Origin: Clostridia bacterium
GTDB lineage: Bacteria > Bacillota > Clostridia > Oscillospirales > CAG-272
Direction: 5' to 3'
Length of the DNA stretch: 32,525 bases
Assembly: GCA_017411605.1 (NCBI GenBank)
Contig: JAFQPR010000091.1
Location: forward strand, 1 to 32,525
Part shown: in pieces, positions 5,201 to 19,489 of the stretch
How positions within the stretch are numbered: the first letter of the stretch is position 1
Layout: each line of letters opens with the position of its first letter
Position numbers and translations under genes: made by a program
The notes under the pieces: generated by a model
What the model saw: only the letters and a program-made list of their open reading frames with translations
What the model was told of the DNA's origin: nothing
Databases searched by the model: none

Positions 5201-5990
5201 TGAAGCGCATACAGGTTCTCCTATGAGAGAACGTACCGTCGAGCATACTGTGCGGCTCTCTTTGCGCGGGGTAGTAATTTTTCGCAAGCTCCGCATAGTA
5301 GCGGCTCGCGTTATGGATAGCGCGCTCCTGCCAGGGCAGACTCTCCTCCGCCTCGATATCCGAGAGAAAAGCGCCCGAGAGGTCGGCTATAACACTCTCT
5401 AAGAATCCCTCAAGCCCGACTATTTTTCCGCTCGCCTCGTCATACCTTGCGGTATATTCCCTCACCGCGTCGGGGTAAGACCGACGTATACGCGCCTTCA
5501 GCGCGTCGATCTTCTTTCGGTGAAGCTCGCTCTCGGCAAGGTAGTCGCGCCGCAGCTCCTCACTCATTCCCGAGGTATCAAGCTCTCGGAAATAGAAGAA
5601 CACGCGCCCCTCTGCGTCACCCGAGAGCAAAGCTCCGTACTCTATTTCAAGCTCCGTGACGGACATCTCGTCCGAAATCTGCGCGCCCTTGGCTGCGGCT
5701 GCATCGCGGACGAGTCCGCCCTCGGGAATCCAGCCGTAGCGCTCGCCGACGAGCACTATCATATAGGGGCGGCAGTCGTCGATCTCGTCGAGGCAGACCT
5801 CGAGCACACGGCGGCAGCCCTCGTCACTGTCAAGAGAGGTGGTATTGACCCCCCAGCGCAGGTCGCCAAAGTATACCTCCTCACCGTAGGGTGAGAGCCT
5901 TTCATTTATATTCAGCGCGGCAAAGTTATGCAAAGCGTCGCGCTCGTGCTGCATATCCTTAAAGGTGGATGAAACAAAAACGTGCTTCAT
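2286..5990 (-). CDS. DUF4062-STAND NTPase with acidic tail
   Basis: A 1234-residue protein with no signal peptide. Residues 1-~130 match the DUF4062 domain (start VFVSSTFKDMQHERD, later VGERYGWIP), a TIR/STIR-related module found at the N-terminus of NPHP3, TEP1 and bacterial STAND proteins. Residues 266-273 (GDSGVGKS) are a Walker A P-loop. Residues 351-360 (hydrophobic strand ending in FIDN) are a likely Walker B. The following ~750 residues are helical and probably form the sensor or repeat region. Residues about 1132-1201 are almost entirely Asp/Glu with spaced FSLDD units, followed by a short amphipathic end. AAGGAG precedes the ATG. STAND NTPases act as ligand-triggered switches, several of them in phage defence. 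No partner defence gene is adjacent, so defence is an inference. Confidence 0.8.
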   Translation of the reverse strand: MKHVFVSSTFKDMQHERDALHNFAALNINERLSPYGEEVYFGDLRWGVNTTSLDSDEGCRRVLEVCLDEIDDCRPYMIVLVGERYGWIPEGGLVRDAAAAKGAQISDEMSVTELEIEYGALLSGDAEGRVFFYFRELDTSGMSEELRRDYLAESELHRKKIDALKARIRRSYPDAVREYTARYDEASGKIVGLEGFLESVIADLSGAFLSDIEAEESLPWQERAIHNASRYYAELAKNYYPAQREPHSMLDGTFSHRRTCMRFIKGDSGVGKSAFLAHSYSEAEKSGDVALLPFVLGLDKYSTYEADYFKLLAYMLEEVTGEEHMECDFGEEYLDDEVIYRILALSAEAPAVVASFIDNCSYDLQNTLSVRILDRHFAAGDLDFFGREESYVSNLEFTVAYSADEEAVMLTPWFDFSRTYVLNTVSEEEEIPLIKMLLRQKHKELDGSVIAAIAEKEQATSPFYLKLAVDRMLMLDSADFAKIREMGDGMDNINRYQISVVKSLPDTAEGMARELIERTAERVGKDFTLRLLALLTYGAVRLTEGEIERVYLTRGWDFSSLEFALVTRGLSSLLSYNSKDKSYRIANPDVISALEELLDSKGYSYVARELVLHIAGEGKTHTRTMASALFRAASYAYPQGMAEFYKKQIDNERFLSKETAWLVHRHGAERVADMLVRLVLDSPECDFSFILREIPTACLTYDDREAYEEILQTILDKIEIKPDGEENINRNSFAAVAWSKLVSMKMKVNTSEASGLFHDFTRAGKREFVMTPRSRILLDVIYYRYLANEAFYSMKIISPECEVPESIDLLEELDSFEEKLLLSSHLFGSFAAYLKRAYEPSHEEFHSMAKQGYETLFGALSEGELNVTADDVATMIDSMLDESDDMLRADVESVSTALKIMAAGQTHVNSRLQKYLPRILAGAKYSLDTDESDFNAETVNLLLRLCATSRAVAGGAITIDDFLYAAVQMEHSYDILSEHIDGAEHYAIVNHLDRFVKMIINASEGDPRTFYRCYMSLRKLFSIFDIYELESAKNKLLSFLSGLEIEDADAPVLPELFIGSLIYRNSCPDNVDLRDRLRELLNTVDTDPDYALYKASYSPELMYLKLDIRTPEEIAADDEFMYSSGLKTAPCAEGDGDDEYSLDGDEDDGYYSREDVDDADSYLDDEDDFDLDDEDDDDFSLDDDDDDEFSLDDEDDDGDDDISDIEDMSIEDMMATLEKWGISIDELLSDDDEE

Positions 5991-6116: not shown

Positions 6117-7619
6117 TTATATCTCCAAAAACATCATACCCTCAATATACTTCTCCGTGAAGGTGGGGCTTGAGGTGAGGTCGAGGGTTTTCGCGCTTTT
6201 TGCGATAGACTCGGCGCGCGCCCTCATATCCTTGTCAAGGAGCAGCATAGATGCGCCCGAGAGAGCCGCGTTGCCGACGGTTTTCGATACTCTCGCGAGT
6301 TTTTTCGGCAAAAGTCCTATCCTCGCGGCATTCGCAAAGCTTAAGTAGTTACCGAAGCCGCCCGCTATATAAAGCTTAGGAACGTCGGATACCGCGAGCT
6401 TCGCGCCGTCAAGCAGAGTCAGAAGTCCCGCGCATATCGCGCTCTTCGCGAGCTGAAGCATACGGATATCCTTCGGGGTAAGGGCTACGGGGTCGAGAAT
6501 CGTATACTCGTCATCCTCGAGATACCCACCCTCGTCTATTATCTCAAGCTCGAGCATTGCGGCTACCGCATCAACAAGACCGCTGCCGCAGATACCGCGA
6601 GGTAATACGTCGCCTATAACGTGAGCCGCAAGGCTACCACCGATAGGACTCACTCTGTCAATAGCGCCGACACCTCCGCGCATACCGCAGGAAATGCCGA
6701 CACCCTCAAAGGCGGGTCCCGCCGCCGTGGAGCAGACGGTGAGCCGCTCACCGTGCCAAAGCGCCATTTCTCCGTTAGTTCCTATATCGCAGAGCATAGC
6801 GGTATCCCTCTCGCATAGCTCCGTCGCAAGGATAGCGCAAACCGTATCCGCGCCAACGAAGGCGGATATACAGGGCGCGAGGTATATCTCGGTTTTCGCG
6901 CCAAGGCACTTTATACCGAGCTCGGATGCGAGGAGAGCTTCGCCAAAGAGCCTTTTTGCCGCAAAGGGCGCGTGAGAGTGCGGCTCGACAGACTCGCAGA
7001 CCAAAAGAGATAGCATAACCGTGTTACCCGTTATAACCACGCCGTCGATATCCGCCGCGCTGATATTCGCGCCTCGCGCGAGCTCCAAAATAAGGTCGTC
7101 AAGCGCTCCCCTTACCGCCTCGGCAAGCTTCAGGTCGCTGCCTCCGAGCGCCGCCTCTATTCTCGATATAACGTCAGCTCCGAACTCGCCCTGCGGATTG
7201 ATAGCCGCCGCAGTTGAAAGAGCCGCGCCCGAGGTGTCATAGAGCTTTGCCGCAAGAGTCGTCGTGCCTATATCGATCGCTGCACCGTATTTTGAGAAGG
7301 TAGGCTTTGGCTCAAATGAAGGCAATGCTCCGCCCGTCACTATCTCTGCGCCGCCGTCTTCATCTATACTCCTTACCGTAACGTCACCGAGAGGATAAGT
7401 CAAGCAAGAAAGGCGCACGCCCGAGCTAAGCTCGCTCTCGGACAAAAGAGCGCGCTCGGTATCCGAGATAGGCGAAATCTCACCCTCGATTATATATTTG
7501 CATTTTCCGCATTTTCCGTGACCGCCGCATGGGCGCTCGCCGCCTATTATCTCTGCGACAGATTTATCACGGGTGGCAGGTATTACCCTGCCAAGATATG
7601 TTACGTTTATTTCTTTCAT
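6117..7619 (-). CDS. RACo/RamA-like reductive activator of corrinoid proteins
   Basis: A 500-residue cytosolic protein. It uses ATP to re-reduce Co(II) corrinoid that has fallen out of the methyl-transfer cycle. Residues 1-80 form a plant-type 2Fe-2S ferredoxin domain: Cys31, Cys37, Cys40 and Cys72 (CX5CX2CX31C). From about residue 112 comes a DUF4445 ASKHA ATPase domain with phosphate motif DIGTTT (116-121) and a later CDIGTNGE motif. It is shorter than typical RACo (about 600+ residues by recollection). It is the last gene of the operon, and its ATG overlaps the stop of the DUF2284 gene (ATGA), implying coupled translation. Its presence is the strongest sign that the operon runs a real corrinoid methyl-transfer pathway. 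Confidence 0.88.
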   Translation of the reverse strand: MKEINVTYLGRVIPATRDKSVAEIIGGERPCGGHGKCGKCKYIIEGEISPISDTERALLSESELSSGVRLSCLTYPLGDVTVRSIDEDGGAEIVTGGALPSFEPKPTFSKYGAAIDIGTTTLAAKLYDTSGAALSTAAAINPQGEFGADVISRIEAALGGSDLKLAEAVRGALDDLILELARGANISAADIDGVVITGNTVMLSLLVCESVEPHSHAPFAAKRLFGEALLASELGIKCLGAKTEIYLAPCISAFVGADTVCAILATELCERDTAMLCDIGTNGEMALWHGERLTVCSTAAGPAFEGVGISCGMRGGVGAIDRVSPIGGSLAAHVIGDVLPRGICGSGLVDAVAAMLELEIIDEGGYLEDDEYTILDPVALTPKDIRMLQLAKSAICAGLLTLLDGAKLAVSDVPKLYIAGGFGNYLSFANAARIGLLPKKLARVSKTVGNAALSGASMLLLDKDMRARAESIAKSAKTLDLTSSPTFTEKYIEGMMFLEI

Positions 7620-8167
7620 TCTTCCTTACCGCGGAAAAGCACAGCGCCGAAGTAGGTTACCGTGTCCTTTCCGTTAATATATTTCATTCCCGCCGCCTTT
7701 GCTAAAAGGGATACGTTTATCCCGTACGCCTCAAGGGACGGCATTGCAAGCTCGGGATATCTGCATACCTCACCCGTGCGCTTAGCGCAGGTCTCGCAAA
7801 CACCGCAGCCGCCGCACCCGAGATGCAATGCGTCGGTAATGCCCATATCGCGGAAAACGGCGCGAAGCTTCTGCGCGAGTGGATACGTTCTTTTTTTCGC
7901 CGCTACCATTCCCTCAAAATCAAAGCTGTCCTCAAGACGGGATACAGTCTGATATACGAGAGCGCGGTCATACTTTCCCACCTCTGCCATAAGCGTATCT
8001 ATATCCCCCACGTCGGGCGGACACATATAGCATTTGCCGTAAACACCGCAGGCATTCCTCTCGCACATCTCGCGAAAGGCTCTGTCAAGCGAGATATCCT
8101 TTACTTCAATTATGCTCGCGCGATATGCGCCGAGCGCCAGAGCCTCGGATACAAGCTTTTCTGTCAT
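7616..8167 (-). CDS. DUF2284 cysteine-rich metal-binding protein
   Basis: A 183-residue predicted iron-sulfur or metal-binding protein. It has an N-terminal Cys set (35, 40, 46, 49, the last two in KCYMCPP) and a C-terminal ferredoxin-like set (118, 121, 124, 127, 135, starting GCGGCGVC). The frame stays open to 8299, but that would run into the URO-D gene. The ATG at 8165-8167 has a GAGG 9 nt upstream and is preferred. DUF2284 proteins are recurrent neighbours of corrinoid methyltransferases. A role in electron delivery to the activator next door is plausible but not shown. It lies 10 bp after the URO-D gene and overlaps the activator by 4 bp. Confidence 0.82.
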   Translation of the reverse strand: MTEKLVSEALALGAYRASIIEVKDISLDRAFREMCERNACGVYGKCYMCPPDVGDIDTLMAEVGKYDRALVYQTVSRLEDSFDFEGMVAAKKRTYPLAQKLRAVFRDMGITDALHLGCGGCGVCETCAKRTGEVCRYPELAMPSLEAYGINVSLLAKAAGMKYINGKDTVTYFGAVLFRGKEE

Positions 8168-8177
8168 TAAGTCTGCC

Positions 8178-9206
8178 TCATTTCCTTGAATTTTTATACT
8201 CCAGCCGCATAAAGCACTCGAGCATTGCGATAACGTTCTCGGGCGGTGTGTCCTGAGGTATCGCGTGAGTGGGAGCGAGTATGTACCCGCCGCCGGCACT
8301 CATAATTTCCGCAGTTTTTTCAATAATGTCAACAAGCTCCTCGGCTGAAGCATTCGGCAGATCGCGCTGAGTTGATATCGCGCCCCAGAAGCACAGCCTG
8401 TCGCCGTATTTTTCCTTTATGCTTTTTAAATCGTATATCTCGGGCTGTACCGTCTGATAGCAGTCGAGTCCTATTTCTATAAGGTCGGGAAATACCTCCT
8501 CGATATCTCCGCAGGAGTGCTGAATAACGAACTTTCCCGAGGACTTCACGCGTCGGTACATCTCTCTCATACGCGGCTTTATAAACTCTCTCCAAAGCGG
8601 AGCGCCCATTATCATACCGCGTTGCTGCCCCCAATCGTCACCGAAATAGATTGCGTCAAAGGGATATTCAATAAGTATATCAATGACCTTGAGATTGAAC
8701 TCGAGTATCTTATCGAGCAGCGCGTGAGTGAATTCGGGCTCCGTCAGCATATAGACGAGAGCGTCCTCCATTCCGACGTAGCTCCAGAGTCGCTCGAACA
8801 TCGAAAATCCGATGCCCGCAAAGGTGAACTTATCCCCCGCCGTCGCAAGCAGGCGTTCGCACTCTTCTCTGATGCGAGCTTCATTAAGATAGGGCTCGCG
8901 GTAAAGTGATATATCGGGCTCGTCGATTATGGGAGAGTCCACAACTCCGATATCCTTATCCGCGCCCGTCCTGTTCCAAGTCACGCCAAAGTCGTCGGTG
9001 AAATACCCCTCTCTTCCGTCCCTTTCGGTAGGATATCCCCAATACTGTATGTAATGGAGATAGCATCCGTATTTATCTAAAAAATTACGGTCGCCCGTAT
9101 ATTCCGCAACTCTGAGATATTCCTGATCTGTAAAGTCTGCGTGATAAGGAAGTCTTTCGCACACCTTATGATTTAAGGCGGCTATAACCGCTTCTCTTCT
9201 GTTCAT
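8178..9206 (-). CDS. URO-D family corrinoid methyltransferase-like protein (A)
   Basis: A 342-residue member of the uroporphyrinogen decarboxylase (URO-D) superfamily, which includes the methylcobamide methyltransferases MtaA and MtbA. The metal-site motif is HSCGD (His230, Cys232). Where MtaA has its third zinc ligand Cys, this protein has His314 in APTHAIP. The same end contains the family pattern YGDRLCFWGAIS. It is probably a methyltransferase passing methyl groups to or from the corrinoid protein, not a heme enzyme: no heme genes are nearby, and a corrinoid protein and activator are. AAAGGAG lies before the ATG. It sits 10 bp downstream of protein B. Confidence 0.82.
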   Translation of the reverse strand: MNRREAVIAALNHKVCERLPYHADFTDQEYLRVAEYTGDRNFLDKYGCYLHYIQYWGYPTERDGREGYFTDDFGVTWNRTGADKDIGVVDSPIIDEPDISLYREPYLNEARIREECERLLATAGDKFTFAGIGFSMFERLWSYVGMEDALVYMLTEPEFTHALLDKILEFNLKVIDILIEYPFDAIYFGDDWGQQRGMIMGAPLWREFIKPRMREMYRRVKSSGKFVIQHSCGDIEEVFPDLIEIGLDCYQTVQPEIYDLKSIKEKYGDRLCFWGAISTQRDLPNASAEELVDIIEKTAEIMSAGGGYILAPTHAIPQDTPPENVIAMLECFMRLEYKNSRK

Positions 9207-9216
9207 ATATTCTCCT

Positions 9217-10260
9217 TTATCCGTGCACTACTCCACACGGTACGCCGTCATCGACGAACTCATCTGCCTTCGGGAAGCCTACTATGCGCTTGTCCGCATT
9301 CGCAGCCGCGCGGAATACTTTATTCATATCGTTAAGGTGCGGCTGAGACATATTAAAGCCGTACATCTCGGGTATCTCGCAAAGCGACTCTATATAGTGG
9401 TCGCCTCTGCCGCAAAAGTGCATGCATCCGCCCCCGAAGTGGCGGAAAAGCTCGGTATCGTAAGGCTTGCTGAACTCATCGTAGAACTCGGGCGAGAGAT
9501 TCATTGCCGAGTCAAGGCGTATCATAAGCGCGCCGCGGTGGAGCACCGCCCAGTGCAGCGAGAGTCCGTCCCTTTTCGGTATTATAGAGTACCAACGTTC
9601 AAGAAAGGCGCGGTAGGTATCGGTGATGAGCCTAAGCGCGCTATGCACAAAGTCGGGCTCGTCATACATCTCGTAGAACATCTCACTGCCCCAAAGCAGC
9701 TCCGCTATATCGAGAGGACCTTGCGCGTCGGGGTGATAAACCTGAACGTACTTGCTGATTTTGGGGTATTTTGCAAACAATTCTTTGCACAGCTCACCAA
9801 ATCGAAGCACATCGCCGCCAAAGCCTCCCGAAAGACTCGGCATACCGCGCTCGAGTATTTCGCGTATTTTATCGCTGTCGTTAAACGATCTGGTTGTCGG
9901 CAGAGTGTTATTCTCTCTCGGCATCATAAAGACCTCAGCGCCAAAGAGCGAGGTCATAATACCCGTTCCGTAATTCGCGCGGATACCTAACGCCTGTCCC
10001 CGCGATGCGAGCTTTTTCGACAGCGAGGTCAGCTCCGAGGCGAGCATTAAGTCCATATCCCCTATCGCGTCGTTTATATTAATGTCACGAAGCTTGACTC
10101 CGGGCTCGCTGACACGCAGCCTCTCGGGACGGAAAATTCTCTCGCGGCGCTCTCCCGCCCAAAAGCTCTCCCACTGACGGATATAATCGTCCTCAACCTC
10201 GGGGTCTATTCTTCTTTCAATATCCTCAAGCAAGGATAAGGTATAACTCGATAATTCCAT
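9217..10260 (-). CDS. URO-D family protein with a short C-terminus (B)
   Basis: A 347-residue URO-D superfamily protein with motif HFCGRGD (His281, Cys283). Only 66 residues follow the motif, against about 110 in its neighbours, so the usual C-terminal strand with the third ligand is missing or replaced by the end CGVVHG (Cys342, His346). The N-terminal part is correspondingly longer. A GGAGG precedes the ATG at 10260. Gaps of 10 bp to gene A and 15 bp to gene C place it in the operon. Methyl transfer is inferred from family and context; the substrate is unknown. Confidence 0.78.
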   Translation of the reverse strand: MELSSYTLSLLEDIERRIDPEVEDDYIRQWESFWAGERRERIFRPERLRVSEPGVKLRDININDAIGDMDLMLASELTSLSKKLASRGQALGIRANYGTGIMTSLFGAEVFMMPRENNTLPTTRSFNDSDKIREILERGMPSLSGGFGGDVLRFGELCKELFAKYPKISKYVQVYHPDAQGPLDIAELLWGSEMFYEMYDEPDFVHSALRLITDTYRAFLERWYSIIPKRDGLSLHWAVLHRGALMIRLDSAMNLSPEFYDEFSKPYDTELFRHFGGGCMHFCGRGDHYIESLCEIPEMYGFNMSQPHLNDMNKVFRAAANADKRIVGFPKADEFVDDGVPCGVVHG

Positions 10261-10275
10261 TTTTATACCTCCGCG

Positions 10276-11295
10276 TCACGCGTTTTTATTGTAAAACTCC
10301 TCAGATGCCGCAAAGAAGGCGTCTATATTCTCCCACGGGGTAAGGGGTGGTATATCACAGCCCGAGGATAAAACAAAGTTTTCATATCTTGCGCAGCGCG
10401 AAAGCAGAGCGAGAGTTTCCTCTTTGACGCTCTCGGGCGTACCGAGTCTGAGCACGCCTGCGGGGTCGATATTTCCCATAACGATAGTGTCCTTCGGCAC
10501 TCTTGCAATTATATCACTTTCCATATCAACGGCGTTGCCGAAGTGATATGCGGCAGAGCCCGTTGTCAGTATCGAGTCGAGCATTTTCGGCACGTTATCA
10601 CCGCAGTTGTGATATATAACCGCAAAGCCGTCATCCTGCACCGCATCAACGATTTTCTTTATATAAGGCGAGGAGAACTCCTCCTCAAGCGCGGGAGACA
10701 GAAGTCCCGCAACGGGCTCTGCCATAACGATACCGTCAGCGCCCGCCGTCTTATATGCCCTCGCGTATTCGGTGAGGAATTCCGTGGCTTTTTCAAGCAC
10801 GGTATGTACCATATCGGGGTCGTCGTAGCAATCCATCATTATCTCGGACACATCGAGAAGCCTTGCCGCAAGCGAGAACGGACCTATCATCCCCGCAAGG
10901 GTGGGTCTGTCCACAATAGCGGCGGACGCCTCGCGTATCGCGTCTATATAGAGCTTTGTTCTGCCCGAGCCGACGGGCGGTACTGCGAGAGCCTCTGCCT
11001 CATCCGCATCGTTTATAATTCTTCCCTTCACCGTCGGCACCTCACCGTCGGATATTACGACCTCGGCTCCGAAGCACTCCGCTTCGACCGAAAGGTCCAT
11101 AAAGCTTACAGCCGCCGCGGCATCCGTACGGCTTGCTACCGTCAGCATTCCCTTTGCCTGAAGGGCGCTGTCCGAAATAAGCTCGCGCACGGTAACACCG
11201 AGCAGGCTCACGCACGGAAAAGACAACACGGGCAAGGGCTTTTTCTTACCCGTACCCTTCAAGCTTTCTATCCATTCCTTCATATTATATTTCAT
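10276..11295 (-). CDS. MtaA/MtbA-type methylcobamide methyltransferase (C)
   Basis: A 339-residue URO-D family protein and the operon member closest to MtaA/MtbA. It keeps the full zinc set: His229 and Cys231 in HNCGD, and Cys313 in SSGCDIPPLTP. In MtaA/MtbA this zinc activates a thiol that accepts the methyl group from the corrinoid. Here the acceptor is unknown, as coenzyme M is not expected in Clostridia. The frame is open to 11337, but the ATG at 11293-11295 has GGAG 8 nt upstream and avoids overlap with gene D, so it is chosen. It is probably the second-step methyltransferase, unloading methyl from the corrinoid protein. Confidence 0.83.
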   Translation of the reverse strand: MKYNMKEWIESLKGTGKKKPLPVLSFPCVSLLGVTVRELISDSALQAKGMLTVASRTDAAAAVSFMDLSVEAECFGAEVVISDGEVPTVKGRIINDADEAEALAVPPVGSGRTKLYIDAIREASAAIVDRPTLAGMIGPFSLAARLLDVSEIMMDCYDDPDMVHTVLEKATEFLTEYARAYKTAGADGIVMAEPVAGLLSPALEEEFSSPYIKKIVDAVQDDGFAVIYHNCGDNVPKMLDSILTTGSAAYHFGNAVDMESDIIARVPKDTIVMGNIDPAGVLRLGTPESVKEETLALLSRCARYENFVLSSGCDIPPLTPWENIDAFFAASEEFYNKNA

Positions 11296-11311
11296 ATCAA
11301 ATCTCCAAAAA

Positions 11312-12382
11312 TCAATAACTGCCAAGCTTATGAGCAAGCTTCGCGATCTCGGTCATATTTTCAAATGAAACCGAGTTCGGTATAGAGTGGTCGGACGCAA
11401 ATACGTAACCGCCCCCCTCCTTCATTACGGGGATGATACGCTCCATTTCAGCCTTTACAAGCTCGATATCGTCCCAAAGCTGAGCATTGATGCCGCCGTG
11501 GAAGGCAAGCTTATCACCGTAGAGATTTTTAAGTCTCGCGGGGTCCATTCCCGCCTTTACCTCGAGGGGGTTGAGCATCTCGAGCCCGATATCAACAACG
11601 TCGGGCAAAAGCGGCTCGATATATCCGCAGGAATGCATCTCGGTAACGAGTCCGCGCTCGTGCGCCCAATCCACCGCCTTTTTGTGATACGGCTTAAGAA
11701 GCGTTCTGTATAGCTCGGGGGAGAAGAAGGGCGAGCCCTTATATCCCATATCGTCGTACCAGAAAACGCCGTCAAATTCATATCCCGCAGCAAGGATCTT
11801 CTCGGCAAGACGGAGCGAGGTAGTAAGATAGGTATCGAAAATATCCGTTACCCATTCGGGCTCCTCGTACATACCTATAAGCATATTCTCCGTACCCGTC
11901 AGGCGCGTATGCGCTACGTCAAAACCAAACCAGAGTCCGAGCTGAAGGAATCTTCCCTCGGCACGCCACTTCGGATAATTCTCTTTGAGGTATTTCCAGT
12001 TTATACGGTCGTCGAGGTCCTTAAGCATTGCCGCCTTTGCCTCTTCCCACTTATCCGAGCTGTCGTAATAAAAATCCAGCACCTCGGGCGTGGAATCAAG
12101 CTCGCGGAATACCTTCTGCGTAGCTCCCCAATAGGTCGTTTCAATTCTGTATCTCTCGTTCTCCTCGAGTATTCTTCTTTCGTATCTCGGGGAGTTGTCG
12201 GGCATCACTCTGATCCAACGGTCAAATCCAAAATGATCCTCCCACGCAACACCTTCAGGCAGTCCCTCAGCCCTCCATCTTTTGACAGTTCCACGCCAGG
12301 CGTTATCAAGCATCGGAATTCTGTCAACGGGTTCTCTTTTATACGTTCTCAGTATTCTTTCTCTTTCGGTAAGCTTTACCAT
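11312..12382 (-). CDS. URO-D family corrinoid methyltransferase-like protein (D)
   Basis: A 356-residue URO-D superfamily protein. Motif HSCGY carries His250 and Cys252. The third-ligand position is His332 in ASDHSIP rather than Cys. The N-terminus starts with the usual TxRERILxxxxxxPVDRIP helix. It lies 16 bp downstream of gene E and 16 bp upstream of gene C. It is likely a substrate-side or partner methyltransferase of the corrinoid protein. Sequence clearly differs from the other URO-D members, so it is not a recent tandem copy. Confidence 0.8.
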   Translation of the reverse strand: MVKLTERERILRTYKREPVDRIPMLDNAWRGTVKRWRAEGLPEGVAWEDHFGFDRWIRVMPDNSPRYERRILEENERYRIETTYWGATQKVFRELDSTPEVLDFYYDSSDKWEEAKAAMLKDLDDRINWKYLKENYPKWRAEGRFLQLGLWFGFDVAHTRLTGTENMLIGMYEEPEWVTDIFDTYLTTSLRLAEKILAAGYEFDGVFWYDDMGYKGSPFFSPELYRTLLKPYHKKAVDWAHERGLVTEMHSCGYIEPLLPDVVDIGLEMLNPLEVKAGMDPARLKNLYGDKLAFHGGINAQLWDDIELVKAEMERIIPVMKEGGGYVFASDHSIPNSVSFENMTEIAKLAHKLGSY

Positions 12383-12398
12383 AACATCCTCGGATCAA

Positions 12399-13523
12399 TT
12401 ATATCTTTATTTTCTTTATTTCTTCCGTGTAATACTGCACGAGCTCAAATTTCGTGCCGGGCATCAGTCTGTGGTCGGGACACGGAATAAATCCGCCCAT
12501 AGCGGCAAGGCGCGAAAGTCTTTCTATCTCCGCGTCAACCGCCGCCTTATCGCGTCTGAGCGCGATCTTATCCATACCGCCTACACCGAGTATCCTCTCT
12601 CCGTACTTTTTGCGCGCGGACTCAAACTGATCGCCCCACGTTCCGATCTCTATCGGGAAAAGCACGTTTACACCGTTCTCAAGCCATGTCGGTATGAGAG
12701 CCTCGGTTACGCCGTCGCAATCAAGAGAGATTATATCTATGCCGTGCTTATGGCACAGCTCGTTTCTCTTCTTATAATGCTTTGCGCAAAGCTCGTCAAA
12801 CAGTGAAGGAGAAAGCAGCGGTCCACTCTTAAAGCAGATATCCTCCCAATAATGCGCGAAGTCGAAGGGTAAGCCAAGCTCCAGCACCGCCTCGGCGCAC
12901 TTATACTGCATATCGGCATAGGTATCGACGATATCGGCAAAAAGCTCCTCGTCCTCGTCGTACATAAGGTAGCTCATACCCATAACCGTGGTTATATCTC
13001 TTATCGCTCCCATAACGCTTCCGAGATAGTATCCGACGGGTACGTCCTCTTTATATTTCTCCTCAAACTGCGTTTTTATTTTCTCTCTGTTGATGCGCTC
13101 GGGCGAAAACTGCATCCTCGGCTTAAAAAGAGTTTCAAACGCCTCCCTGTCCCTCAGCAAATAGTCATCCTCCGACGGGATAGAAACGATACCCGGCTTA
13201 ATCCTTTCGATAACGCCATTTTGCGTCTGCACTCTGCGCGATCCGTCGGGTAAAACCTCGAGGATCTTATGCTCAAACTTCGGGAAAAGACCGCAATTCA
13301 CTTCAATATTATTGTTCCAATTGCAATCCCAGCCTAAAATTTTATCAAGCTCACGCTGAGCGGCAGAGCCGTCTCTGCCTGCCCCCTTTGCAAGCTCCTC
13401 GGAAATATATCCCGAAGCAGCCCATTCGGAAAGCAGCTCCGCCCAATAGCCAAAATGGACAGCAGGCATTCTGTCAACGCTTTTGTAATGAAGGAGGTTC
13501 ATACAGCGTTCTCTTGTGTTCAT
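12399..13523 (-). CDS. URO-D family protein with altered metal site (E)
   Basis: A 374-residue URO-D superfamily protein. The HxC motif is changed to LDCDG (Leu267, Cys269). The C-terminal position is His351 in CPDHRLMPG. The open frame reaches 13547, but its first eight codons contain the AAGGAG that serves the ATG at 13521-13523, so that start is chosen. It follows a 102-bp gap after gene F, the second largest within the operon. With only part of the metal site kept, it may use a different substrate or metal set; this is inference. Confidence 0.78.
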   Translation of the reverse strand: MNTRERCMNLLHYKSVDRMPAVHFGYWAELLSEWAASGYISEELAKGAGRDGSAAQRELDKILGWDCNWNNNIEVNCGLFPKFEHKILEVLPDGSRRVQTQNGVIERIKPGIVSIPSEDDYLLRDREAFETLFKPRMQFSPERINREKIKTQFEEKYKEDVPVGYYLGSVMGAIRDITTVMGMSYLMYDEDEELFADIVDTYADMQYKCAEAVLELGLPFDFAHYWEDICFKSGPLLSPSLFDELCAKHYKKRNELCHKHGIDIISLDCDGVTEALIPTWLENGVNVLFPIEIGTWGDQFESARKKYGERILGVGGMDKIALRRDKAAVDAEIERLSRLAAMGGFIPCPDHRLMPGTKFELVQYYTEEIKKIKI

Positions 13524-13625
13524 AAAGCAGTTCTCCTTATATTTCAATACGATCTACGCAATTCTTGCTTCTTATCTATTGACAATAAAAGCGTCGTTAA
13601 AGTTCGCAAAACGAGAAAAATGTAA

Positions 13626-14666
13626 TCATTTCTTTTCAAATACGGGACATGGAGCGATATTTTCCCCCTTATGAGTAGCCTTCTCGCAATACTCGTAAAG
13701 GAGCTTTGCGTACTCCTTATAATACTCCATCGGCACGTCGGGCGGCGTCTGATGATCCACGGAAACGATTACCTTGCCCCGCATCATCGAGGGTAAAATG
13801 CGCTCAAACTCCGCGCGCATAGCGTCCTTGCCGTCCTTCATACACATTTTATCAAAGTGACCGATAAACGCCAATTTAGGCTGCTTATCAAGGTAGGTGG
13901 AAACGTCGACTCCAGCCTTTCTCTCAAGAGGGAGCATACCGTCAGCGCCGACCTCGGCATACCAATCCACCGCCTCGGTTATATCTCCGTCCGAGTCGAT
14001 TATAACGGGAATACCGTACTCGTGGATCACGGGTATGACCTTCTTATAGAAGGGAGCTAAAAATTCGTCGAAGCACGCCTTCGAGAGCATCGGTCCCCGG
14101 TTATAGCTCATATCCTCGGCAAAGGTCATAAAGTCAAACCTGAATTTTTCGAAGGTATAACGGAAAAGCTCAATAAGCCAATCCGAATAAAGCTCGCACA
14201 TCTCTTTGTAAAGCTCGGGATAGTCGTAGAAGCTGTAAAGATGATTTTCGATACCGAAGATCGTTCTCGGATACCAGAAAAAGCCCTCTACCGTGAAAAA
14301 GCTTATGGTATCGCCGCGCTGACGCGCCCTCTCGAAATAATCAAGGGTTTTCGTATTGATCACCGTCTCAACGGGCGGAAAAAGAGTTTTCTTAACTCTC
14401 TCCCAATCGTCCTCGTCGTTTACTATTCCAAGACCGTTTCCCGCGGAGCGCGGAGTGTCCTTCGTTCTGTAGCCTATCCACATCTGCAGGCACTTATCGA
14501 GTCCGAAATAGTCCTGTATCTTTTCATTGTTATCGACATCCGCCGGAAGCCCCTCTTTGTGCCAGCGGTCAACGGTAAGGTTCCACCAGGTAGCCCACTC
14601 TATCGCGGGGCAACGGTCTACCTCCTCGCCCGAAAGGTATTTTCTGAAGCGTTCCGATGCAGTCAT
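13626..14666 (-). CDS. URO-D family protein with Asp-Ser-Asp site (F)
   Basis: A 346-residue URO-D superfamily protein lying 5 bp after the free corrinoid protein gene. At the HSC position it has Asp224-Ser-Asp226 (IDSDGD), and His305 (SVDHQTPP) replaces the third Cys, so the thiolate zinc site is gone. Acidic residues might bind another metal or act as acid/base, closer in spirit to decarboxylase URO-D, but this is inference. Tight coupling to the corrinoid gene makes it a strong candidate for the substrate-side methyltransferase. Ribosome binding is weak (GAGCTGGG around the preceding stop). Confidence 0.8.
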   Translation of the reverse strand: MTASERFRKYLSGEEVDRCPAIEWATWWNLTVDRWHKEGLPADVDNNEKIQDYFGLDKCLQMWIGYRTKDTPRSAGNGLGIVNDEDDWERVKKTLFPPVETVINTKTLDYFERARQRGDTISFFTVEGFFWYPRTIFGIENHLYSFYDYPELYKEMCELYSDWLIELFRYTFEKFRFDFMTFAEDMSYNRGPMLSKACFDEFLAPFYKKVIPVIHEYGIPVIIDSDGDITEAVDWYAEVGADGMLPLERKAGVDVSTYLDKQPKLAFIGHFDKMCMKDGKDAMRAEFERILPSMMRGKVIVSVDHQTPPDVPMEYYKEYAKLLYEYCEKATHKGENIAPCPVFEKK

Positions 14667-14671
14667 ATACG

Positions 14672-15313
14672 TTAACCCAGCTCAGCGCAGAATTTCACTG
14701 CCGCATCAGCCGCGCTAGCCGCATCAACGGTATAACAGTCCGCGCCTATCTTGTCGCAATACTCCTGCGATACGGGCGCGCCTCCTATCATAATTTTAAC
14801 CTTATCTCTGATACCGCGCTCCTTCGCGAGCTTAACGACCTCTTCCATAGCTCCCATAGTGGTGGTAAGAAGAGCCGAGCAGCAGATGACCTGACATCCC
14901 TCGCTCTCAGCGGTGTTGACAAAGGTCTCGGGAGAAACGTCCGTTCCAAGGTCAACGACCTCGAGTCCCTTGCCCTCCATCATCATTTTAACAAGGTTCT
15001 TACCTATATCGTGAAGGTCTCCCGCAACGGTACCGATGCAAACCTTACCGCGAGCGACTACACCGCTTGCCGCAAGATGAGGCTTTAGCACCTCAGCGCC
15101 CATATTCATAGCTCTCGCCGCGACGAGAACCTCGGGAACGTATACCTCGTTATTTTTGAACTTCTCGCCGACAACGTTCATTCCCGCAAGAAGTCCCTCG
15201 TTGAGTATCTGTTCGGGATCCATCCCCTCAGCGATAGCCTGCGTAACAAGCTCCTTAACTATCTTAGCCTTACCCTTCTGCAAATTTTCCGAAATTTCAC
15301 TTAATACTACCAT
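14672..15313 (-). CDS. Corrinoid protein (MtaC/MtbC type)
   Basis: A 213-residue methyltransferase corrinoid subunit. Residues 1-~85 form the helical cap domain of methionine synthase type. Residues ~88-213 form the Rossmann B12 domain with GDLHDIGKNL, where His101 is the lower axial cobalt ligand, plus the later SALLTTT and GGAPVS loops. It carries the methyl group on cobalt between methyltransferases. AAGGGG precedes the ATG. Over residues 6-206 it matches the C-terminal half of the AraC fusion two genes upstream at 184 of 201 positions, so the two arose by recent duplication. It presumably serves the URO-D proteins of this operon. Confidence 0.92.
   Translation of the reverse strand: MVVLSEISENLQKGKAKIVKELVTQAIAEGMDPEQILNEGLLAGMNVVGEKFKNNEVYVPEVLVAARAMNMGAEVLKPHLAASGVVARGKVCIGTVAGDLHDIGKNLVKMMMEGKGLEVVDLGTDVSPETFVNTAESEGCQVICCSALLTTTMGAMEEVVKLAKERGIRDKVKIMIGGAPVSQEYCDKIGADCYTVDAASAADAAVKFCAELG
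14696..15298 (-). repeat. Copy 1 of a 603-bp dispersed coding repeat
   Basis: This stretch, coding residues 6-206 of the free corrinoid protein, is a direct repeat of 16706-17308. Long runs are identical at DNA level, and many synonymous sites are shared. Confidence 0.9.
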
Positions 15314-15433: not shown

Positions 15434-16657
15434 TCAGTCGTAATATTTATCAAGCACGTCGCTTACCGTCTGCGCCCATACGATAAGGTTATCGGGGCGG
15501 TGCGATACGGTGCTGATATCCTTAAGAACGACGTCGTAAGGGCATCCGTACTTAATACAGGTCTTAACAGTATCCTCGATCTCCCGTTTTATAACCTCGG
15601 GATCTGTTTTTATGGCTACGTGAGCGGGGTTGGGTTTTCTTGCGAGAACGTAATCCTTACCTATCTGCTCGGCGCATTTTTCTACGTTTGCCCAAGGTGA
15701 GCAACCGATCTTTCTGAGGTTGGATATCTTTTTCAATACCTCTATCTTATCGTCAAGCGGCTCGCAGCAGCCGTAATATGTATACTTAAACCTCTCGGCT
15801 ACCGAATGAAGATAATTTACCTCAAACTCCTCAAACATCGCGGGGGAAATTACTCCGAAGGTCTGCGCCATGCTGCGGCACCACGTCGCTTTCAGTCCTT
15901 CGTTCTCAAGCCCCGATACCGCAGACGGCGTGCAATGCAGCGACGGCTGAAGCGATACCGCAAGATTTTTCTCCGCAAAGTCAAGCTCCGCGTGTGTGGC
16001 TGAGACAAATTTTTCAATTATCCTGTGCAGGTATTCGGGACGGTCATACATATCCATAAGGATGGGCTCGACGCCGCGTAATCTGGTGATCTTATCCCAA
16101 GGCGCAAAATAAAGGAAATTGAAGCCGCTCAGCTTTATCGGAATAGAATCACCGAGAAGCTCGGTATAAAACTCCATATTTTCCTCATCCTTATCGGGAC
16201 GAAGCGTAAATACGGGAGAATGCATTTTCACAAGCGCGGACTCATCCTCAAGCACGTCCTCAAACTCTCTTGAAACGATATTGTTTACACTGTCTGTACG
16301 CTTCATATCGGAAGTCTTCATCGCTATTCCGATACCTGTCGATTCTACCGCTTGCTTTACACGAAAAACGGGCTCATAGAGATTATCCGCCTTGAAGTGA
16401 GTCATATAAAATATGGCTTTTCTGAAATAAAGCTCGACGTTACGCGCGCGTTCATCCTCGCAAACGCAAGTAAGCTCGCCGTCTATATTCATCTGATACC
16501 ACGGTATCTCTTCAAGAATGACGGGAGGTCTTACGAGCTTTAAATCGTTTGTGGCTCTGAATCTCTCTGTCATTTTTTTCTGCTTCTCGGTACAGACAAG
16601 CGCCATATACCTTTTGACAAGCTCTCTTACGGTTGATTTGTCGTTTTGAGTAATCAT
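15434..16657 (-). CDS. Divergent URO-D-like protein (G)
   Basis: A 407-residue protein I assign to the URO-D superfamily with moderate confidence, from overall layout and from TYYGCCEPLDDKI (residues 293-305). That motif takes the place of HSCGD, giving Tyr295, Cys297, Cys298 and Glu299. Further Cys and His residues (Cys319 in RKIGCSPWANVEKC, His240-ish in LHCTP) could complete a metal site. It has about 60 extra residues relative to its neighbours, mostly N-terminal. AAGGAG lies before the ATG, 18 bp after the regulator stop. As second gene, between the regulator and the free corrinoid protein, it may be the dedicated substrate enzyme. Confidence 0.65.
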   Translation of the reverse strand: MITQNDKSTVRELVKRYMALVCTEKQKKMTERFRATNDLKLVRPPVILEEIPWYQMNIDGELTCVCEDERARNVELYFRKAIFYMTHFKADNLYEPVFRVKQAVESTGIGIAMKTSDMKRTDSVNNIVSREFEDVLEDESALVKMHSPVFTLRPDKDEENMEFYTELLGDSIPIKLSGFNFLYFAPWDKITRLRGVEPILMDMYDRPEYLHRIIEKFVSATHAELDFAEKNLAVSLQPSLHCTPSAVSGLENEGLKATWCRSMAQTFGVISPAMFEEFEVNYLHSVAERFKYTYYGCCEPLDDKIEVLKKISNLRKIGCSPWANVEKCAEQIGKDYVLARKPNPAHVAIKTDPEVIKREIEDTVKTCIKYGCPYDVVLKDISTVSHRPDNLIVWAQTVSDVLDKYYD

Positions 16658-16675: not shown

Positions 16676-18262
16676 CTAACAGTTATTCTGTTTCTTTAAA
16701 AAATCAACTGCAGCATCTGCCGCGCTTGCCGCATCAACGGTATAAAGGTCCGCGCCTATCTTATCGCAATACTCCTGCGATACGGGCGCGCCCCCTATCA
16801 TAATTTTAACCTTATCTCTGATACCGCGCTCCTTCGCGAGCTTTACGACCTCTTCCATAACGCTCACAGTGGTGGTAAGAAGAGCCGAGCAGCAGATAAC
16901 CCCGCAGCCCTCGCTCTCAGCGGTATTCACGAAGGTCTCGGCAGAGACGTCCGTTCCGAGGTCAATAACCTCGAGCCCCTTGCCCTCCATCATCATTTTA
17001 ACGAGATTCTTACCTATATCGTGAAGGTCTCCCGCGACGGTACCGATACAGACCTTTCCCCGAGTGACGGCGCCGCTTGCCGCAAGATAGGGCTTTAGCA
17101 CCTCGGCGCCCATATTCATAGCTCTTGCAGCTACGAGAACTTCGGGAACGTATACCTCGTTATTTTTGAACTTATCGCCGACAACCCTCATTCCCGCAAG
17201 AAGCCCCTCGTTGAGTATCTGTTCGGGAGAGCCGCCCTCGGCAATCGCCGCCGCGACAAGCTCCTTAACGAGCTTTGCCTTACCCTTCTGCAGGTTCTCC
17301 GAAATCTCACCCAATATCTCGGTCAGCCTTTCTCTTTCAGCCTCTTTTTTATCCTTGCTTATAATCTTCGTTTTCTGTGTTTTCGTCTTTCTGTATTTAC
17401 CTGGGGTCATACCCACCGCGCGGGAGAACACCTCGTAAAAGGTATTCATATCGAGAAATCCGCACGAGCGCGCCGCATCCTCAACGTTCATATCCGACTT
17501 TAAAAGCAGCTCGCACACGTGAGAAACTCTGACGCTTCGAAGATAGCTCGGGAAGGATACGCCCGTCGCTCTTTTAAAAAGTCTGCTCAGGCGTGACTCG
17601 CTGACGTAAAGCTCCTCGGCAACGGAGCCCATAGTAAACGCGCTGTCCGTGTATCTCTCGTTTATAAGCTTCATGGCGGATGCGGTGATCCCCCACTCAC
17701 CCGCCGTTATCGGGAAGCTCGTTTTTATCGCGAGATTTATATATCTCGCAACGTTGATAAAAAGATCGGTGAGGTACGAGCGTATCAGCTCCGCCCAGCC
17801 GGACTTTCTCTCGAGCGACTCGCACTCGATATAATCGTATAAAAGATAAACTCTGTCGAGCATATATGAGTTGAGCGTGGCGTATGCGATAACTCCCGTC
17901 GCGGCGAAAACGCCGTAGCAGTAATTCGGGCTTTCCCTCTCCGTGACGTCGGCTGAAAACCAATCGCGGATATCGAACTCGAGCTGCCTTACGGAAAGCT
18001 CGCCTGCGCCGTCATTTAAGAAATATCCGTGGGGCACGTCGGGCGGTATTATGCAAATATCCCCGACAGAACAGGGTATCTCGCAGTCGAGCACTCGGTG
18101 TATTCCCTCACCCGATGTGACAAGGCAGACCTTGAATCGATTGCTCGTCTTAAGGCTTGACAGCTCCGTTTTCGCGTCGTATATCTTCTCGCAGGAGAAA
18201 ACGTTGCATTTTATGAATACTCCCTCGCACGAAGAAACGCGCGCCGCGTTGCCGTTTTTCAC
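16676..18262 (-). CDS. AraC regulator fused to a corrinoid-binding protein
   Basis: A 528-residue two-part protein in one uninterrupted frame. Residues 1-~100 look like an AraC-type cupin sensor (PPDVPHGYFL). Residues ~190-293 are a double helix-turn-helix AraC DNA-binding domain ending in the hallmark GMTPGKYRK. Residues ~294-315 are a charged linker. Residues 316-528 are a complete MtaC-type corrinoid protein with cap and B12 domains; GDLHDIG with His414 is intact, so cobalt binding should be kept. It starts with GTG, with GGAGG 9 nt upstream. It is the first gene after the operon promoter, so it probably controls its own operon. The likely role is sensing corrinoid presence or methylation state (inference). 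It resembles CarH in principle, but with AraC in place of MerR and a catalytic-type corrinoid module. Confidence 0.9.
   Translation of the reverse strand: MKNGNAARVSSCEGVFIKCNVFSCEKIYDAKTELSSLKTSNRFKVCLVTSGEGIHRVLDCEIPCSVGDICIIPPDVPHGYFLNDGAGELSVRQLEFDIRDWFSADVTERESPNYCYGVFAATGVIAYATLNSYMLDRVYLLYDYIECESLERKSGWAELIRSYLTDLFINVARYINLAIKTSFPITAGEWGITASAMKLINERYTDSAFTMGSVAEELYVSESRLSRLFKRATGVSFPSYLRSVRVSHVCELLLKSDMNVEDAARSCGFLDMNTFYEVFSRAVGMTPGKYRKTKTQKTKIISKDKKEAERERLTEILGEISENLQKGKAKLVKELVAAAIAEGGSPEQILNEGLLAGMRVVGDKFKNNEVYVPEVLVAARAMNMGAEVLKPYLAASGAVTRGKVCIGTVAGDLHDIGKNLVKMMMEGKGLEVIDLGTDVSAETFVNTAESEGCGVICCSALLTTTVSVMEEVVKLAKERGIRDKVKIMIGGAPVSQEYCDKIGADLYTVDAASAADAAVDFLKKQNNC
16706..17308 (-). 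repeat. Copy 2 of the 603-bp dispersed coding repeat
   Basis: This codes residues 319-519 of the AraC fusion and is a direct repeat of 14696-15298. The flanks on both sides differ from copy 1, which argues against an assembly artefact. Confidence 0.9.
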
Positions 18263-18296: not shown

Positions 18297-18325
18297 ATTA
18301 TACCACCTATTTTTCGCTTTGTAAA
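18297..18325 (-). promoter_or_regulatory. Promoter of the corrinoid operon
   Basis: On the minus strand, TTTACA (18320-18325), a 17-nt spacer, then TATAAT (18297-18302). The start would be near 18290, only about 28 nt before the GTG. This leaves no room for a cobalamin riboswitch, so control is probably by protein. Confidence 0.7.
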
Positions 18326-18532: not shown

Positions 18533-19489
18533 TCATTTTATCCCCGAGACCTCGCGCGCAACCTCCAGGAATTTTTCTGCAGCCGCGGAAAGCGTTATGT
18601 CTTTTTGCATTATAATGTAAAGCGTTCTTTGCAAAAAATCGGATTTCGGCAGAAAATATAAAATATTATCGTCGTCAAATTTGCTCATCCTTATATGATA
18701 ATCCGTCGTCATAATAGCTCCTATTCTTTCCTTCATAAGGCTATTGTGCATACCGACTTGGCGCGCGTTCTCAACGACGTAGTTGACAACCTTATAAGAG
18801 CCGAGTATCTGCTTCATTTTGTACCTTGTGTTTGAAAAATAGGAGTATTCGAAGAATTTTATATCCCGAAATACGGATAGGTCTGAAACGTAGTCCCCCT
18901 TCGTGAGCGCACCCGAGATGATGCGCTCTCTCGGCACGGCGAGGTGGGCGATCTTACTTGCGCCCTCCATATCCTTATGCATGGCAATCAGCATAGTCTC
19001 GTTCAAAATCGGTATTCCCACGCATTCCGAAGGGTCAAAATCGTAGCCTAACATCATATCAAGCGAGTGGCTTCTCATCTTTTCGCTCAGATTTCCTATC
19101 CGACCGATGCTGCCCATATCAAGCCTTACGTTAACGTTTGGGTATTTCTCGTTGAATACCGAGCATATTTTTGCAAGCATTTCGGATGCGCTGTAAGAAT
19201 ACACGCCTATCGAGACCGCGCCGTATGATGCGTCGCGCAGCATTTTTATACGGTTGAGCATATAATTTTCGCTTTTTTCCTTTTCGTCAAGATATTCGAC
19301 GTATATCCTCCCCTCGGGCGTGAGAGCGATCGGTATAACGCTTCTGTCAAAAATCGCGAATCCGAGATTTTTTTCGTGCCTTGCTATCGCCGTGCTCAGA
19401 GCGGGCTGCGATATAAACAGCTCCTTTGCCGCGGCGGAAAAGCTGCCCGTCTGATAAACAGTATATGAATATTTTTCCAAAAGCTCCAT
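18533..19489 (-). CDS. LysR-type transcription regulator
   Basis: A 318-residue LysR family activator or repressor. Residues 1-60 form the winged helix-turn-helix (GSFSAAAKELFISQPALSTAIARHE-type pattern, then LTPEG). Residues ~90-300 form the periplasmic-binding-like effector domain (SIGVYSYSASEMLAKI start). GAGGG lies before the ATG. It diverges from the peptide/SGNH lipoprotein unit across a 120-bp AT-rich gap, the usual layout for a LysR regulator and its target. The effector is not predictable. It sits behind the corrinoid operon promoter but is a separate transcript. Confidence 0.9.
   Translation of the reverse strand: MELLEKYSYTVYQTGSFSAAAKELFISQPALSTAIARHEKNLGFAIFDRSVIPIALTPEGRIYVEYLDEKEKSENYMLNRIKMLRDASYGAVSIGVYSYSASEMLAKICSVFNEKYPNVNVRLDMGSIGRIGNLSEKMRSHSLDMMLGYDFDPSECVGIPILNETMLIAMHKDMEGASKIAHLAVPRERIISGALTKGDYVSDLSVFRDIKFFEYSYFSNTRYKMKQILGSYKVVNYVVENARQVGMHNSLMKERIGAIMTTDYHIRMSKFDDDNILYFLPKSDFLQRTLYIIMQKDITLSAAAEKFLEVAREVSGIK

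Follow-up and report, generated by a model that had tools for sequence, protein, structure and literature searches.

What does a transcription factor do with a methyl carrier? The question is raised by a stretch of 32,525 nucleotides from a Clostridia bacterium (contig JAFQPR010000091.1 of assembly GCA_017411605.1; the whole stretch is called the window here), in which one uninterrupted frame joins a cupin sensor, an AraC DNA-binding domain and a corrinoid module. We favor the reading, with a probability of roughly 0.6, that the product is an AraC regulator that carries a copy of its operon's own carrier and would sense the state of that carrier, regulator and carrier being nested in one gene in most relatives and split into two genes in the window.

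The fusion gene of the window

The original prediction placed at 16676..18262 a 528-codon frame with a cupin, an AraC helix-turn-helix (HTH) and a full MtaC-type corrinoid module containing His414. The frame and the Pfam searches bear this out and the coordinates are correct; the strand, left unstated, is the minus strand. The gene is laid out as follows.

16676..18262 (-): fusion gene, cupin, AraC HTH and corrinoid module, 528 aa; GTG start at 18262, stop ending at 16676
17972..18139 (-): AraC_binding (cupin) sensor stretch, residues 42-97; Pfam PF02311
17387..17620 (-): AraC DNA-binding domain HTH_18, residues 215-292; Pfam PF12833, 82.8 bits
17324..17386 (-): linker, residues 293-313; internal Shine-Dalgarno site in nested relatives, none in the window
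17321..17323 (-): codon 314 (ACC), corresponding to the internal ATG of nested relatives
17093..17308 (-): corrinoid helical cap B12-binding_2, residues 319-390; Pfam PF02607, 69.7 bits
16730..17056 (-): corrinoid Rossmann part B12-binding, residues 403-511, with DLHDIG; Pfam PF02310, 86.7 bits

The cupin profile is barely above its cut-off (23.4 bits versus 21.1), and a second AraC profile also matched (PF00165, 62.1 bits). AraC was the only HTH class found with Pfam, which detected no MerR-type HTH of the CarH/LitR kind. In the corrinoid module, DLHDIG starts at residue 412, so that the histidine is residue 414, and the helical cap is followed by a Rossmann B12 domain with DxHxxG, SxLxT and GG, which we take to be the motifs of MtaC-type corrinoid proteins. 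Judged by its sequence, the module is related to the MtaC-type family without a named subtype; it missed the NCBIfam cut-offs for named members (corrin_MtgC_2, 219.1 of 370; pyl_corrinoid, 186.9 of 215.3). The best Foldseek matches of the module were MttC (7xcn) and a Moorella corrinoid protein (1y80); ToxT and Rns were matches to the AraC fold. The predicted structure is good inside the domains (pLDDT 85.7) and does not fix their arrangement (pTM 0.43); the model puts a long helix, residues 287-325, over the linker, with low confidence in its middle. Pairing with the anti-Shine-Dalgarno sequence is strong just before the GTG (-18.3).

The surrounding operon

Downstream of the fusion, all on the minus strand, come first the genes of a URO-D methyltransferase and the free corrinoid protein, then six more of the URO-D type, and finally those of a DUF2284 protein and a RACo-type reactivase.

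18297..18325 (-): promoter-like site TTTACA-17-TATAAT with an extended -10; best site upstream of the fusion, 11/12, by consensus match only
15434..16657 (-): URO-D family methyltransferase, 407 aa; Pfam, 24.3 bits, cut-off 23.9
14672..15313 (-): separate free corrinoid protein, 213 aa; Pfam; Shine-Dalgarno-like AAAAGGGGA upstream
13626..14666 (-): URO-D family methyltransferase, 346 aa; Pfam
12399..13547 (-): URO-D family methyltransferase, 382 aa; Pfam; homologue often directly upstream of the fusion in relatives
11312..12382 (-): URO-D family methyltransferase, 356 aa; Pfam
10276..11337 (-): URO-D family protein, MtaA-like candidate second methyltransferase, 353 aa; best NCBIfam match PRK06252, 159.7 bits, cut-off 244
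9217..10260 (-): URO-D-like protein, 347 aa; 21.4 bits, under the Pfam cut-off of 23.9
8178..9206 (-): URO-D family methyltransferase, 342 aa; Pfam
7616..8299 (-): DUF2284 predicted metal-binding protein
6117..7619 (-): RACo/RamA-type corrinoid reactivase, 500 aa; Pfam

The operon thus contains the methyltransferases and the reactivase that accompany an MtaC-type carrier. A contig scan, in which the best 80 of 310 relatives were kept, gave 43 loci with both halves in one frame, which together with the window make up the first set of 44. The predicted linkage of the fusion to methyltransferases and reactivase held in this set: URO-D methyltransferase homologues are present in 42 of the 44 loci, the RACo-type reactivase in 33 and the DUF2284 gene in 30. 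That the fusion opens an operon, as was also proposed, is supported in the window by the promoter-like site upstream of the GTG, but fails as a general rule, a methyltransferase gene lying directly upstream in 18/44 first-set loci. Promoter-like sites are abundant in the region upstream of the fusion (15, versus 7.1 expected in shuffles), and a repeat search for an operator near the promoter gave only weak, chance-like repeats. The gene immediately upstream of the fusion (18533-19489, also on the minus strand) encodes a LysR-type regulator; at E 1e-6, none of the other 43 loci has a homologue within the stretch that was fetched. Positions 2286-5990 (minus strand) encode a 1234-aa DUF4062 protein with an acidic, repetitive C-terminus. 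As a check for acetogenesis, FTHFS is present in the genome, and CdhC (acetyl-CoA synthase domain, PF03598) was not found in the 81.8% complete assembly. That assembly, of 104 contigs, has three matches to the B12-binding domain: the fused module, the free module and an 822-codon, MetH-sized frame.

An internal start signal in most relatives

Window included, 51 fusion genes were found in 48 genomes; one of these genes (locus L015) leaves its contig at the 3' end. In the alignment, most fusions have a methionine at the position where free corrinoid proteins start. An in-frame ATG at that position, or one codon off, occurs in 36 of the 37 fusions without a separate carrier copy, in four of the five with a copy elsewhere and in one of the nine with a copy downstream in the same cluster; an ATG plus a Shine-Dalgarno-like motif occurs in 34/37, 4/5 and 0/9, respectively. 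Pooling the fusions without a downstream copy gives 40/42 for the ATG, compared to 1/9 with a downstream copy, and 38/42 versus 0/9 for the ATG with its Shine-Dalgarno motif (Fisher p=2e-7, genes being treated as independent). Counted by lineage, the latter becomes 0/7 split versus 38/42 (p=4e-6), with kinship corrected on one side only. The absence of the start signal from split loci is thus directly visible in the sequences.

The sorting has a few particulars. "Same cluster" means a separate copy downstream of the fusion, so that L010, which retains its internal start despite a free gene about 1.5 kb upstream on the same strand, is outside this class; recounted as same cluster, it changes the result to 37/41 versus 1/10 (p=2e-6). 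L154 (genome G180) was shifted from "copy elsewhere" to "same cluster" after the first counts, its copy lying just downstream, split over two frames; under the first sorting the ATG counts were 35/36, 4/5 and 1/8. L009 and L156 were missed by the first anchor pattern and placed with a looser one. By the pattern used, L016 and L032 have the ATG without a Shine-Dalgarno motif, and L162 and L156 have neither.

The motif is specific to this position. AGGAG precedes 29 of 38 module starts and only one of 751 other in-frame ATGs in the same genes (a count made without L029, two of 40 near-alike rows having been removed), and the median anti-Shine-Dalgarno energy is -9.3 at module starts versus -3.0. 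The Shine-Dalgarno block is conserved at 0.81 bit per base, compared to 0.22 for the preceding 70 bases. Because an ATG and a Shine-Dalgarno motif sit where free corrinoid proteins begin in most fusions without a downstream copy, and no other corrinoid-protein gene was found in 33 of the 43 fusion-bearing relatives, most relatives look like single nested genes that give both an AraC-corrinoid regulator and a free carrier. The full-length regulator would be made together with a free carrier of about 213 residues, translated from the internal ribosome-binding site and ATG, and the two would share the corrinoid module. A conserved in-frame start with a Shine-Dalgarno motif is found in the relatives and is absent from the window gene, where codon 314 is ACC and no such motif precedes it; a TTG with some anti-Shine-Dalgarno pairing at codon 317 may act as a weak internal start. 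The original prediction missed the main point, namely that a nested two-product gene looks to be the usual state and the window an exception.

We initially read the fusion as the only carrier, a view superseded by the internal ATG and Shine-Dalgarno motif. It survives as an unlikely alternative in which the full-length fusion is the catalytic methyl carrier, the DNA-binding half is an autoregulatory add-on, as in a trigger enzyme, and the internal start is minor. The cobamide-site residues, present in every fusion compared (see below), would fit such a role, as would the fact that the fusion is the sole MtaC-type gene found in 33/43 genomes: whole-assembly searches with the cap domain found no standalone corrinoid protein (a frame of 200-260 codons) in these 33, although nearly all named genomes are metagenome-assembled and the missing gene counts for less than appears. 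Three of the genomes without a separate carrier gene are nearly complete (G328, 96%; G132, 98%; G214, 96%; paired through identical coordinates with loci L043, L042 and L025, respectively). Searching the fusion genomes with the Rossmann domain brought in, besides MetH-sized frames, two short frames (one each in G015 and G016) and others of about 380-930 codons whose size makes them probable radical-SAM or mutase proteins. The fusion of L162 also speaks for a catalytic chain, since it adds a methyltransferase and is without an internal ATG. On the other hand, a conserved internal ATG with a Shine-Dalgarno motif would be purposeless if the full-length chain were the carrier, and the signal is missing exactly where a separate carrier gene comes next.

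Two unusual frames also turned up. In L162 (6686-9373, minus strand; genome G765, contig C45), a single 895-aa frame comprises cupin, AraC HTH, corrinoid module and URO-D methyltransferase, which at the level of sequence shows that the regulator can adjoin the chemistry; G765 also carries L161, a nested fusion of the ordinary kind, and searching it with the cap domain revealed no free corrinoid gene. In L149 (2456-4429, plus strand; genome G082, contig C13), a 657-aa frame joins a URO-D methyltransferase to a corrinoid module, an order like that of CmuA.

Loci with a separate carrier

A separate free corrinoid gene lies within the fetched stretch in only 8 of the 44 first-set loci, the window among them. 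The two modules of the window share 186 of 206 residues (90%) and 540 of 610 bases (89%), so that the free protein is indeed a close copy, for which the earlier "nearly identical" was slightly strong. The window looks like a derived, split state in which the internal start has been lost, a separate carrier is present and the cobamide-site residues of the fused copy are retained. In a quick tree of the AraC halves, the label "separate copy" changes seven times, at least six of them forced; one change, near L007, may be a reversal. In the module tree, the fused and free copies of the window are sisters (100/99), with end branches of 0.12 and 0.022 (the tree leaves out the second, short corrinoid match of L051). 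Fused and free copies are not sisters in L021, L023, L071 and L034, and the separate carriers there need not, therefore, be duplicates of the adjoining fusion. Gene conversion between the two modules of the window found no support (longest identical run 50 nt, p=0.12). The free copy of L154 (8755-9386, minus strand), which lies over two frames downstream of a fusion without an internal start, reflects either real decay or an assembly error.

For the window lineage we propose that the module was duplicated to give the separate carrier (15313-14672), and that the fused copy would then have lost its internal start and retained its cobamide site. The methyltransferases and the RACo-type reactivase most likely still have the fused module as a substrate or docking partner, and its state (empty, Co(II), Co(I), methyl-Co(III) or partner-bound) would report on the carrier pool to the promoter at 18325-18297; the ligand of the cupin, whatever is bound there, would act beside it. 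By this route the fused module of the window would most likely monitor the carrier pool. That both products are translated, that the fused module binds cobamide and that its state alters DNA binding and thereby regulation is what we infer from the sequences. A more specific version, to which we would give slightly less than even odds, holds that one nested gene supplies both a carrier and a transcription factor that uses the carrier as its sensor, that the pathway enzymes imprint their catalytic state (methyl-Co(III), Co(I), Co(II)) on the regulator, and that the window is one of six or seven independent splittings. The coupling may run through cobalt state or methylation, through docking of a partner enzyme, or through plain co-expression with the cupin as sensor.

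Regulators that are titrated by enzymes are known in general, and the resemblance of the fused module to the operon's own carrier means that the same partners could dock to it. The module might accordingly be a docking site by which operon enzymes bind the regulator and titrate it on or off DNA, cobamide chemistry not being the signal. We hold this to be improbable, in that residues of the cobamide-contact motifs, beyond those at the surface, are present in all the fusions compared.

Selection on the fused module

All 44 fusions compared retain the residues of the cobamide-site motifs (H414, S459, T463-465 and G490-G491). In the window, NG86 estimates of dN 0.061 and dS 0.433 for the fused-free pair give a ratio of 0.14, indicating purifying selection. 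The ratio lies between 0.10 and 0.20 in seven of eight fused-free pairs and spans both branches (the eighth pair has no value); dS is near saturation in most pairs (0.77-1.97; 0.43 in the window). By these ratios and the retained cobamide-site residues, the fused modules are not decaying.

They do seem to change faster than free ones. With near outgroups, the fused:free counts are 12:4 in the window (p=0.077) and 29:13, 30:11, 31:9, 22:6, 21:5, 37:10 and 14:6 elsewhere. Measured against one distant outgroup clade, the fused module is faster by median count in 8/8 split loci, the excess being significant in four of the eight (L021, L071, L029 and L034, with outgroup L047); the window gives 9:5 (p=0.42), and its faster change is thus a matter of direction only. 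These rate counts do not include L154. A lean to faster change is also seen in the 35 fusions without a copy (486:305 summed, 6/35 significant), but their share is smaller than that of the split loci (difference, p=3e-4). Faster change is thus common to fused modules at large and more marked after a split, which is modest support for the preferred reading, short of proof. A neutral-looking control (464:489) was discarded, the outgroup for some fusions being a near-copy of the fusion itself. Deviating conserved columns differ between the 11 fusions with a copy in the genome and the 33 without (p=0.009), a result that is not relied upon because the columns were defined on free proteins.

The same data bear on a further alternative, in which sensing of a substrate is left to the cupin alone and the corrinoid module, a remnant of the translational fusion of adjacent genes, is carried along passively and passes no signal. 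An easy route to such a fusion exists through loss of a stop codon: an unfused AraC gene lies directly upstream of a free corrinoid gene, on the same strand and within 200 nt, in 10 of 81 order-sample loci. Conserved residues persist in the cupin half, and the lean of fused modules to faster change points the same way. A passenger should decay, however, whereas the cobamide-site residues persist, and in the six or seven lineages with split loci even a redundant fused module stands at the low dN/dS given above, measured against the free copy with both branches covered. We therefore consider a passive module quite unlikely.

Distribution of the fusion

The 43 fusion-bearing relatives are records with Clostridia-type titles, mostly metagenome-assembled genomes and many from ruminant guts. 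The fusion is rare: it was found in at least 9 of 394 genomes sampled from the window's order (window included), in at least one other among 391 of the class sample and in none other among 398 of the phylum sample, the samples overlapping and three candidates being scored per genome, so that all counts are lower bounds. With a profile of the AraC half, the nine fusion genomes of the order sample scored 283-418 bits and the best unfused AraC protein 168 bits (six candidates scored per genome, again a lower bound); given this gap, the AraC half of the fusions looks like a separate family. Across 49 aligned fusions the HTH residues are conserved, and the cupin half likewise retains conserved residues. 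Cysteines C64, C115 and C267 of the AraC half are conserved in 46, 47 and 49 of the 49, respectively, and a thiol or metal role in the sensor half is possible.

The database search that had been suggested, for an AraC HTH joined to an MtaC-type B12 domain with its neighbors tabulated, thus returned a recurrent fusion linked to methyltransferases and reactivase. Although the window lies in an incomplete, 104-contig assembly with two 89% identical modules, an assembly or annotation artefact, including the misassembly at the linker (17310-17380) that had been named as a concern, or a chance frame can in practice be set aside, since there are 50 other fusion genes in 47 other assemblies and the AraC halves of 19 aligned relatives are only 31-43% identical to that of the window.

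Relation to known systems

Like the fusion, CarH/LitR joins a DNA-binding domain to a cap-plus-Rossmann cobalamin module, and CarH (5c8f, rank 44) and another MerR-type B12 domain (8jbt, rank 27) are among the Foldseek matches. In the descriptions available, CarH/LitR has a MerR HTH and light-sensing adenosylcobalamin, whereas the fusion has an AraC HTH with a cupin, a module of the methyl-transfer type and a methyltransferase operon. The nested genes have a parallel in AerR of Rhodobacter capsulatus, a B12-binding regulator with a long and a short form (LAerR and SAerR), the short one made from a second, internal translation start, according to the portion of the source available (PMC9144470). 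As described there, both AerR forms are co-regulators of the DNA-binding CrtJ; in the fusion family, DNA binding would fall to the long form, with the short form serving as an enzyme subunit. MtaC, MtbC, MttC, MtgC and CdmC belong to the same family as the module by sequence and fold but are free proteins, whereas the module of the fusion is also the C-terminal part of a transcription factor. In CmuA and similar proteins the corrinoid module is likewise fused to a part of the pathway (CmuA being MTI and corrinoid protein in one, by the excerpt available; PMC13222342), but the partner is an enzyme rather than a regulator; L149 is the one such case here.

HTH and diguanylate cyclase domains are among the partners named in a survey of light-responsive cobalamin domains, whose text nowhere uses the word "AraC" (PMC11796333). 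We found no AraC-corrinoid fusion in the open-licence literature, as represented mostly by listings and the beginnings of abstracts. B12-domain regulators as such are already known; what appears to be new is a regulator that incorporates the methyl carrier of its own pathway and is nested with that carrier. If the pathway enzymes do imprint their catalytic state on the regulator, the fusion would be a B12 regulator that responds to enzyme turnover rather than to light. The family would add a class of cobamide-reading transcription factors next to the CarH-type photoreceptors. It would also illustrate a way in which enzyme supply could be matched to methyl flux in anaerobes that remove methyl groups from plant or diet compounds. 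The family offers a directly testable regulator whose sensor is the carrier, and its nested and split genes would be a natural experiment on one module shared between catalysis and control.

Unfused neighbors suggest where such genes could have come from. Of the 81 order-sample loci, ten have an AraC gene on the same strand no more than 200 nt upstream of the corrinoid gene, and nine have one there on the opposite strand. An apparent tendency of unfused AraC and corrinoid genes to be kept in one frame (10/10) was an ascertainment effect: the frames in the order sample are 4:4:2 (n=10 same-strand neighbors within 200 nt). PocR-type AraC regulators adjoin free corrinoid genes in the same type of locus; they differ from the fusion in their PocR sensor domain and in being unfused, with separate stop and start. 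In L046, L047, L048, L049, L054, L055, L069, L122, L123, L125 and L135, an AraC gene precedes the free corrinoid gene by 3-102 nt, and the three of these loci that were scanned have a PocR domain (L046, slightly under the cut-off, L055 and L122). Such loci possibly picture the state before fusion.
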